From Nitrospirota bacterium (GTDB taxonomy: Bacteria; Nitrospirota; Thermodesulfovibrionia; Thermodesulfovibrionales; JdFR-88), in NCBI GenBank assembly GCA_021789555.1, contig JAJYJK010000019.1, positions 1-40,560 of the forward strand: DNA of 40,560 nt, given 5' to 3'. The translations under genes and the position numbers were made by a program. This document shows, in pieces, positions 7,328 through 9,235 of the stretch (the stretch's first letter is position 1; every line of letters starts with the position of its first letter). The notes under the pieces are model-generated. The model searched no databases, was not told the origin of the DNA, and saw only the letters and a list, made by a program, of their open reading frames with translations.

Positions 7328-8260
7328 TTACTTCCCCTCGTTGAAGACCAGGCTTGCGGCCCCGACGGCGCCCGCCTCGTCCCCGAGACTTGCCGGGATG
7401 ATGCTCACGCCCTGAAACAGGCTCTTGAAGGACCGTTTGGAGGCCTCCTTTATGGCTTCATCGACGTAGATGTTCCAGGAGCCGACGAGCCCGCCGGCAA
7501 GGATTACGGCCTCCGGGCTCATGATGTTGATGATATTGGCGATGCCCACGCCCAGATACCTGCCGGCCTCTTTAAGCACTTCCCTTGAAAGGATATCGCC
7601 TTCCCCGAAGGCCGCCTTGTAAACGTCCTCGGGCGTGATGCGGTAAATCTTGCCCTGGCAGCATTCCCTCAGGATGCTTTCCGCCCCGCCTTCCAGGGCC
7701 TCGACGACGGCGGCGATTATCGCGCGGGCGGAAGCGAATATCTCCAGGCAGCCGTTGTTGCCGCAAAAGCATTTCTTGCCGTCCGCCGCGATGCTCATGT
7801 GCCCCACCTCGGCGGCGACTTTCAAAAGCTCTCCGCCGTAGATTATCCCCCCGCCTATGCCGGTGCCAAGCGTCATGAGGACAAAATTCTTGAAATTCCT
7901 GCCGGCCCCCGCGCGGGCCTCGCCCAGCGCGGCGGAGTTGGCGTCGTTTTCGACATAGACCGGAACGGGATAGGCGAGGTCGTTGAAGGAATACCCGTTA
8001 AGGGGCGGGATGTTCGGCGAGATCGTTATCCTGCTTTCCCCGCGTTCGAGCACGCCCGCAACGCCGATCCCTATGCCTTCCACCTCCGGGGACATAAGCT
8101 CATCGATCGCGGCCTTCATGAGCCGGATGACATCGCCCCCGGCCGCAAGGCCGGACGAAGGCTCCTTTAGCTTCTTCACCACTTCAAAATCGCGGGAGAC
8201 GAGCGCCGCCCGCAGATTGGTCCCCCCCAGATCGATGCCTATGGCATATGGCTTTGTCAT
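7328..8260 (-). CDS. ROK-family sugar kinase (glucokinase-like)
   Basis: A 310-residue cytoplasmic ROK kinase that phosphorylates glucose or a related sugar with ATP. N-terminal GIDLGGTN (D10-T14) is the phosphate-binding loop. END at residues 104-106 supplies the catalytic aspartate D106. H154 with C164, C166 and C171 (GHMSI...CFCGNNGCLE) forms the ROK zinc site. There is no N-terminal helix-turn-helix, so it is an enzyme rather than a NagC/XylR-type repressor. It has a clear promoter (TTTACA-N17-TAGAAT) with the -10 ten bases from the ATG. It diverges from the nuclease-like gene at 8357. Glucokinase is the best guess, but N-acetylhexosamine or fructose kinase activity is possible. Confidence 0.9.
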   Translation of the reverse strand: MTKPYAIGIDLGGTNLRAALVSRDFEVVKKLKEPSSGLAAGGDVIRLMKAAIDELMSPEVEGIGIGVAGVLERGESRITISPNIPPLNGYSFNDLAYPVPVYVENDANSAALGEARAGAGRNFKNFVLMTLGTGIGGGIIYGGELLKVAAEVGHMSIAADGKKCFCGNNGCLEIFASARAIIAAVVEALEGGAESILRECCQGKIYRITPEDVYKAAFGEGDILSREVLKEAGRYLGVGIANIINIMSPEAVILAGGLVGSWNIYVDEAIKEASKRSFKSLFQGVSIIPASLGDEAGAVGAASLVFNEGK

Positions 8261-8299: not shown

Positions 8300-8309
8300 G
8301 AAGCCCGAC

Positions 8310-8331
8310 GGCGGGGGCGCTCGCCCCCGCC
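8310..8331. other. GC-rich perfect hairpin in the divergent intergenic region
   Basis: GGCGGGGGCG/CGCCCCCGCC with a two-base loop, between the divergent ROK promoter and the gene at 8357. It has no T-run, so it is not a standard terminator. It could be an insulating hairpin, a protein site or a repeat remnant. Confidence 0.45.
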
Positions 8332-8356: not shown

Positions 8357-9235
8357 ATGGAACAGGAAGAACTGGAAGAGCTGGGACTTTTAAGGGAAGA
8401 GGTAAAACGCCTTAGAAAAATGCTTGCGCTCTGCACCCCGACGCTGGCGGCGCTCCTCAGGAGAAGGGGTCTCGATATCTACGCGAAAGGGCCGGCCGGC
8501 GACCTGCTAATCCCTGAAGAGGGGTCCGCAGACGATTGGTACGAGCATATGAAACATTATTCCTTCAGGCTCTATCTGAGAGACGTCATAAAGCAGCAGG
8601 AGCGGTTCACGGTCGCGAGCCTCACGCGCTACGCCACATCGGATGTAACTGCCGGGTACACTCGATACCTGGCGCAGGCCGGGGTCATCGAGGAGACCGA
8701 CGGGGCGTACCGCCTGAGTGGCGGGCGCATAAAGAGTTTCGGCGAGACGCTCGAGTGGTTCGCGGCGCAAACCCTCATCCGGGAGTTCCAGGCCGAAGCG
8801 CTATGGGGAGTAAAGTTCAAAAGGAGGCTTAAATCGGAGAGGCCGCGGACCGGAGGAGATTACGACGTCGTGGCGAAGATAGACGGCGGGATACTCTACA
8901 TGGAGGTGAAATCCTCGCCGCCCAAGCAGATTTATCAAAACGAGATAACCGCCTTCCTTGAAAGGACAAGGCAACTGGCGCCGGAGATCGCCGTCTTCTT
9001 CATGGACACGGAACTCAGGATGAAGGACAAGATAGTGCCGATGTTCGACCAGGCCCTGCCAGGTTTCAAGTCCCTGCCCGGTTTCGAATCCATGACCGGG
9101 GCCCCCAGCCCCGTGAGGCTCTACAAGGAGCTTTTCAGGATAGGCGACAAGATGTTCATAATAAACGCCAAGGGCTCAGTGGCCATGAACATCGAAAGGG
9201 TCCTCGGCCATTATTTTGGCGCGCGCATGACATGA
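8357..9235 (+). CDS. Uncharacterised wHTH + PD-(D/E)XK nuclease-like protein
   Basis: A 292-residue protein I cannot assign to a named family. Residues 1-25 are a Glu/Leu/Arg-rich coiled coil. Residues about 72-125 read like a winged helix (RFTVASLTRYATSD, then AGVIEETDGAYRLSGG as the wing). Residues about 128-215 carry a restriction-endonuclease-fold signature: helix E130/E133, GGDYDVV with D170, then YMEVKSS with E183 and K185, i.e. D-x12-ExK. A Phe/Arg-rich helix (EITAFLERTRQLAPEIAVFF) follows, as in NERD- or Card1-type nuclease cores. There is no membrane segment or partner gene. The gene is solitary, diverging from the ROK kinase gene, with no clear ribosome site. DNA or RNA cleavage is inferred only from the motif. 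Confidence 0.7.
   Translation: MEQEELEELGLLREEVKRLRKMLALCTPTLAALLRRRGLDIYAKGPAGDLLIPEEGSADDWYEHMKHYSFRLYLRDVIKQQERFTVASLTRYATSDVTAGYTRYLAQAGVIEETDGAYRLSGGRIKSFGETLEWFAAQTLIREFQAEALWGVKFKRRLKSERPRTGGDYDVVAKIDGGILYMEVKSSPPKQIYQNEITAFLERTRQLAPEIAVFFMDTELRMKDKIVPMFDQALPGFKSLPGFESMTGAPSPVRLYKELFRIGDKMFIINAKGSVAMNIERVLGHYFGARMT

Follow-up and report, generated by a model that had tools for sequence, protein, structure and literature searches.

The window analyzed here, i.e., the whole 40,560-nucleotide stretch of DNA presented above, contains a forward-strand open reading frame at 8357-9235 that starts with ATG, encodes 292 residues and is a real gene for a protein with a PD-(D/E)XK nuclease domain. 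This nuclease gene and its product, referred to below as X, represent neither an artefact nor a defence effector; X is a variant of the Can2/Card1 module that lacks a CARF domain and has a new family of small partner proteins, referred to as S. Can2/Card1 nucleases are CRISPR effectors restrained by their CARF sensor. On the whole of the evidence, X is probably an active metal-dependent chromosomal nuclease, a Can2-type module free of CARF/cOA control, for which S would serve as an accessory partner in most lineages sampled. The features of X and of the gene beside it are listed by coordinates and strand, with the basis of each assignment in brackets.

8357..9235, +: X, N-terminal helix, wHTH and PD-(D/E)XK nuclease, CARF-less Can2/Card1-type (conservation, model, structure alignment)
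8357..8464, +: residues 1-36, N-terminal helices 2-26 and 30-36 (DSSP of the model)
8528..8716, +: residues 58-120, winged-helix-like domain (model; separate wHTH structure matches)
8741..9226, +: residues 129-290, PD-(D/E)XK nuclease domain (model, structure alignment)
8753..8755, +: E133, predicted active-site glutamate on a helix, at the motif place of E274 in Cdn1 as given in the available part of PMC12825302 (81 of 81 sequences)
8822..8839, +: residues 156-161, an insertion shared by 3 of the 81 sequences (alignment)
8852..8866, +: residues 166-170, GGDYD with D168 and D170 (alignment)
8903..8923, +: E183-x-K185-SSPP189 (alignment)
9005..9031, +: D217-TELRMKD-K225, nearly invariant, after strand 211-216 (alignment)
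7328..8260, -: ROK family kinase, a neighbour given as context and not considered part of the system (PF00480, E 1.8e-54)

The first-pass annotation had singled out this frame by a D170-x12-E183-x-K185 signature, which is exact in the sequence, with GG before the aspartate and SS after the lysine. S186-S187 do follow the lysine, but G166-G167 precede D168 (GGDYD) and not D170. The bare D-x12-E-x-K pattern was dropped as proof of a nuclease and is weak evidence by itself, because it occurs in 7 of the whole window's 173 stop-to-stop frames that are 100 residues or longer.

The scan for relatives covered one genome per species and used exact 8-residue query patterns, so that distant relatives in other phyla are possible. 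It yielded 119 relative-encoding stretches; the best 80 (best-segment identity 49-83%) were retained and, together with the window's protein, formed an 81-sequence alignment. Among these best 80 of 119, 75 are labelled Nitrospirota, and the labels of the five exceptions (L011, L033, L056, L072 and L080) include Nitrospinota and Deferribacteres (two). All 81 sequences share the same residue at D170, E183 and K185, and likewise at E133 and D168; of the two upstream glutamates proposed for conservation, E133 was thus confirmed but E130 is a glutamate in just 64 of 81. The other positions that never vary across the 81 sequences are W134, SSPP 186-189, R203, D217, T218, R221, D224 and K225, together with YSFR 68-71 in the winged-helix-like domain. 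In an 18-row alignment extended to deeper lineages (three deeper members), E133, D168, D170 and E183 remained invariant, and K185 was replaced by T in one deep homologue (L148, identical to G119, at 1349-2128) that retained the other four active-site residues. Apart from this one deeper member, the conserved D...(D/E)xK that defines the PD-(D/E)XK superfamily is found in X and all its aligned relatives (81/81), and it is this conservation, unlike the bare motif, that upholds the nuclease reading.

The same replacement of K185 bears on whether X could be catalytically idle and act as a nucleic-acid-binding regulator. Such a role would suit the wHTH of X and has a parallel in VC1899, which has catalytic residues yet shows very little RNase activity in vitro according to the available part of PMC7969007. 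Since none of the five active-site residues varies among the window's protein and the best 80 of 119 relatives, we regard an idle regulator as improbable and an active nuclease as the preferred reading.

The absence of a named family, also claimed for X at the outset, held up in Pfam, NCBIfam, PADLOC and PHROGs. Pfam gave the window's X a single row within E <= 10, namely SAM_TNK (E 0.14, chance), NCBIfam and PHROGs gave no match, and the sole PADLOC row, BrxA (E 0.04), was taken as chance. MTase_II (PADLOC, E 0.03) and one unnamed PHROG (E 0.12) were likewise taken as chance, and matches to solved structures by sequence, with the single protein and with a profile, were chance only (carboxypeptidase B, response regulators). 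X had no match at E <= 10 to the NERD and Mrr-type Pfam families, a sequence-level result that is compatible with a structural relation. PF09002 (Card1_endonuc) did not match X at E <= 10 or any protein of the window's own genome, and the X family HMM found no Card1 protein. A profile comparison by hhalign of 53 X proteins with 19 Card1-type sequences from the same phylum gave a probability of 1% and E 0.056 over 38 columns, with the active site in register. Because sequence profiles barely join the two groups, the relation of X to Card1/Can2 rests on structure. A 288-residue protein (L141, L142) with a weak PF09002 match was considered as a relative; it had no X HMM match and looks unrelated. 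No description of the X or S family was found in the open-licence literature, where most subscription papers are absent.

An AlphaFold2 model of X from a 53-sequence alignment had a pLDDT of 89.0 and a pTM of 0.88, and for a family member that shares 50% identity with the window's X, a further model had values of 87.3 and 0.83. These models, together with VIA and Foldseek matches to solved PD-(D/E)XK enzymes, gave the restriction-endonuclease-like fold that a fold search was expected to decide on, and the winged-helix middle suggested by the first-pass annotation was borne out as a wHTH-like part at about residues 58-120. In the model, E133 lies in helix 129-144, strands 170-175 and 178-185 bear D170, E183 and K185, and a helix, a strand, a helix, three strands and a C-terminal helix follow. 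The top Foldseek match in the PDB was VC1899 (1xmx; E 1.9e-6, TM 0.43/0.35), followed by Can2 (E 6.1e-4), with TM-scores of only 0.31-0.51 in the Can2/VC1899 rows. VIA-align of the window model ranked Can2 7bdv first (Z 13.9; 196 residues, 3.9 A), then Cdn1 (12.8), VC1899 (12.7), T. brockii Can2 (11.4-12.0), 8bao (11.7), Can1 (11.6) and Card1 (10.0 and 9.0), and the next row after this group was an unrelated wHTH at Z 7.9. With the second model the order was Can2 7bdv (14.6), Cdn1 (13.2), VC1899 (12.3) and Card1 (10.2-10.4), with McrC next at 7.9; rmsd values in VIA-align were 3.6-8.8. A viral structure library searched with the X model returned nothing informative.

The C-terminal part of X had been described as differing from Card1 cores, which the alignments do not support: the match to Can2/Card1 runs from about residue 23 of X to residue 289, the C-terminal part included. 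Both the wHTH and the nuclease halves are covered (Z 9.0-14.6, with weak sequence-profile support), and the real difference is the missing CARF domain. In place of an N-terminal CARF, X has about 55 mostly helical residues before the wHTH. The structure alignments start beyond the CARF portion of Can2, with model residues 5-27 paired with chain residues 126-152 of the CARF nucleases, and residues 1-36 of X occupy the place of the CARF-domain end or linker. Additionally, the spacing D168-x-D170-x12-E183-x-K185 equals that of E308/D310/E323/K325 in Cdn1, whose active-site residues are listed as E274, E308, D310, E323 and K325 in the available part of PMC12825302, and SthCan2 loses activity with E276A/D278A according to the part of PMC7969007 at hand. 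Altogether, these structural comparisons make common descent of X and Can2/Card1 likely, though not proven.

This likeness raises the question of whether X serves type III CRISPR as an ancillary effector and receives a cOA signal through a separate CARF protein, as its Can2/Card1 fold and active site would allow. The panel examined comprised 395 Nitrospirota genomes, with X counted at E <= 0.001, fragments included, and with shared ancestry left uncorrected in the tests. Cas10 (PF22335) matched at E <= 0.001 in 150 genomes, many of them weakly, and the association counts use the 63 genomes with a strong match (best E <= 1e-10, a threshold of our own). Strong Cas10 was found in 22 of 112 X carriers vs 41 of 283 non-carriers (p 0.22, ancestry uncorrected). 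As a positive control, PF09002 nucleases exceeded the cut-off in 27 panel genomes, 23 of which had Cas10 (p 1e-16), and Card1 itself showed no association with X (8/112 carriers vs 19/283 non-carriers; p 0.83). The type III linkage that characterizes Can2/Card1 was thus seen in the control and not in X. The window's own genome had no match to Cas10 (PF22335), and no cas genes were seen among the X neighbours inspected. Activation by cyclic oligoadenylate would also be unexpected because X lacks CARF. We therefore consider a CRISPR effector role extremely unlikely. More broadly, the earlier suggestion of a stress or defence effector found no support: besides the lack of a Cas10 link, none of 27 pattern matches in viral contigs was confirmed as an X relative, none was found in plasmids and phages, and the genes surrounding X relatives are mostly metabolic.

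A recurrent neighbour of X is S, a small Cys4 protein (about 50 residues) that carries C-x2-C-A-W-[RK]-x2-C-x-K-x-F plus one more cysteine and probably binds zinc. Sequence of 150 nt or more follows X in 79 of the 81 loci; S comes immediately downstream in 56 of these, and L074 has a fused copy. For the 55 found by pattern, S overlaps X by 4 nt in 17 and overlaps at all in 22, counts that are approximate because the S start codons were set by a chosen rule. Four representatives of S matched no Pfam or NCBIfam family. Counted at E <= 0.01, S occurs in 139 of the 395 panel genomes: 79 have both genes, 33 X only, 60 S only and 223 neither (OR 8.9, p 1e-19, ancestry uncorrected). Single X::S frames occur in two genomes, G176 (on the same contig as L074) and G178. 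That S adjoins X in many relatives points to a routine chromosomal function and not to CRISPR defence. No match to S was detected in the genome of the window itself; L002, whose X is 80% identical to the window's, has S, and L003-L007 are without it. Since X is retained there without S, X must work or be kept without it in the window's lineage. In one genome without X (L206, 2470-3542, -), S was seen by eye beside a HEPN/nucleotidyltransferase-like pair, probably by chance.

In other lineages, S forms the N-terminal part of proteins of about 195-260 residues (8 frames read). The two such frames that were scanned match PF03266, NTPase_1 of the THEP1 type (E 1.5e-47 and 2.6e-47), and the S::THEP1-type NTPase fusions include the following.

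L192, 3206-3871, +: S::THEP1-type NTPase (PF03266)
L199, 2018-2677, -: S::THEP1-type NTPase (PF03266)
L150, 1403-2065, -: S::THEP1-type NTPase (PF03266)

The fusion gene directly follows X in G013, G046 and G022, three genomes of one family, as judged by Pfam in G046, by sequence in G013 and by coordinates and frame length in G022. In L192-L195 it is preceded by a TrkA-like gene and a membrane protein, not by X.

The upstream survey took in the 79 loci (of 81) that have 600 nt or more of sequence before X and counted YjbQ (UPF0047) within 400 nt on the same strand; the gene families were confirmed. YjbQ directly precedes X in 35 of the 79, and the gene before yjbQ in these 35 is LpxK (23), FolK (6), LplA (4) or none of these (2); because LpxK, FolK or LplA may precede it, the yjbQ-X pair is kept in at least three contexts. 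DUF116 replaces YjbQ in 7 loci, and the ROK kinase stands opposite X in the window and in its closest relatives. The first-pass description of X as standing alone beside a sugar kinase therefore fits the window (ROK, PF00480) but not most relatives examined, where YjbQ and/or S adjoin. In L011 (2698-5955), L017 and L023, yjbQ and X are separated by a type ISP restriction-modification gene, with PF18135 in L011, the one scanned, and a small Cys-rich frame separates them in G013 (L150, 2986-3537, -). Two neighbour clusters were excluded by eye as antisense frames, c28 of YjbQ and c39 of S. Some 27 nt ahead of the X start codon, in the gap that separates this gene from the divergently oriented ROK gene, the window carries a GC-rich palindrome or hairpin at 8308-8330, GGCGGGGGC-GCTC-GCCCCCGCC, which is not retained in the relatives looked at.

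X is present in 112 of the 395 panel genomes, in 96 of 324 good genomes and in 78 of 170 genera, with one match per carrier except for one genome with two pieces. Two different X loci (L022 and L057) fall under one assembly name (UBA9159), the sole case noticed, as a second copy or a mixed bin. Across the 27 loci that have both YjbQ and LpxK, X had a median pairwise identity of 0.63, YjbQ of 0.70 and LpxK of 0.52, and the three diverge alike (rank correlations rho 0.65-0.67), as vertical descent would give. The X-YjbQ correlation drops to rho 0.47 over 44 loci, and that of X with an aldolase neighbour was 0.49 (28 loci). In G118, aspC-folK-yjbQ is about 90% identical to that of G116 and X is cleanly missing between yjbQ and S; broken or remnant copies occur in G182, G301, G299 and G148, some of which may be assembly errors. 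X is thus constrained where present, yet dispensable, as it is absent from 283 of 395 genomes and broken or remnant in four.

Such repeated loss and decay, the two-gene order, the 4-nt overlap in 17 of 55 loci and the small size of S are features that a toxin-antitoxin or abortive-infection pair would share. X is found without S, however, in 33 of 112 carriers, the window's own genome among them, so that the nuclease is not restricted to genomes with its partner, and the active site is conserved in the S-less copies. The divergence of X is housekeeping-like, and its relatives were not found in plasmids, phages or viral contigs. With this evidence, a toxin-antitoxin pair is quite unlikely. A housekeeping nuclease could also substitute for a canonical repair enzyme of mismatch repair or Holliday-junction resolution, for which the superposition of the Can2 nuclease domain on the mismatch endonuclease EndoMS, reported in the available part of PMC7969007, offers some ground. 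MutL was found, however, in 111 of 111 genomes of the order (105 over the cut-off) and RuvC in 107 of 111 (99 over the cut-off); since both occur across the order, X replaces neither, and this substitution is very unlikely.

Under the preferred reading of X as an active chromosomal nuclease, the protein would require a divalent metal and would consist of the wHTH and PD-(D/E)XK module of Can2/Card1/VC1899 minus the CARF sensor. E133, D168, D170, E183 and K185 would make up its catalytic centre, nucleic acid may be gripped by the wHTH together with the conserved D217-K225 segment, and X may dimerise as Can2 does. It would be a chromosomal and largely vertically inherited Nitrospirota gene, outside the CRISPR effectors, whose most likely job is nucleic-acid processing or quality control on a DNA or RNA substrate. 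S, presumably co-expressed with X in most lineages sampled, may act as an accessory or substrate-delivery factor, and YjbQ, the common upstream gene, offers little hint of the mechanism.

A bolder proposal, which we put forward tentatively and consider doubtful as a whole, is that X, S and the THEP1-type NTPase belong to a so far undescribed system of Nitrospirota that processes nucleic acid independently of CRISPR. In it, S would be a zinc-knuckle adaptor docking on one substrate either the Can2-type nuclease, as the X::S fusions suggest, or the RecA-like NTPase, as the S::NTPase fusions suggest. If this were true, the Can2-type module would serve a housekeeping function outside cOA signalling, as an ancestor or a domesticated descendant of CRISPR effectors. 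A CARF-less X that evolves like a housekeeping gene in about a quarter of the sampled Nitrospirota genomes would show how the module is used or controlled without a second messenger. The THEP1 family is conserved up to humans, and S, being fused to both X and a THEP1-type NTPase, provides a testable lead on it.

Compared with known systems, THEP1/NTPase_1 (PF03266) is linked to X through fusion to its partner S and is absent from X itself; in the available part of the 2005 structure paper (PMC1079890), the function of THEP1 was unknown and a DNA/RNA modifying role was proposed. Other PD-(D/E)XK proteins such as McrC, AF1548 and N.BspD6I align with the nuclease core of X at Z 7-8, in shorter alignments and below the Can2 group. 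VC1899 of Vibrio cholerae (1xmx), the top Foldseek match, resembles X in lying outside a CRISPR locus, as stated in the accessible text of PMC7969007, but it retains the CARF domain that X lacks. The closest likeness is to Can2/Card1/Cdn1 (DUF1887; PF09002), which share with X the order and arrangement of the wHTH-like part and the PD-(D/E)XK domain and an active site of helix E, [DE]-x-D and ExK, whereas X differs in being without CARF, PF09002 match and Cas10 association and in carrying flanking motifs of its own, SSPP and DTELRMKDK.
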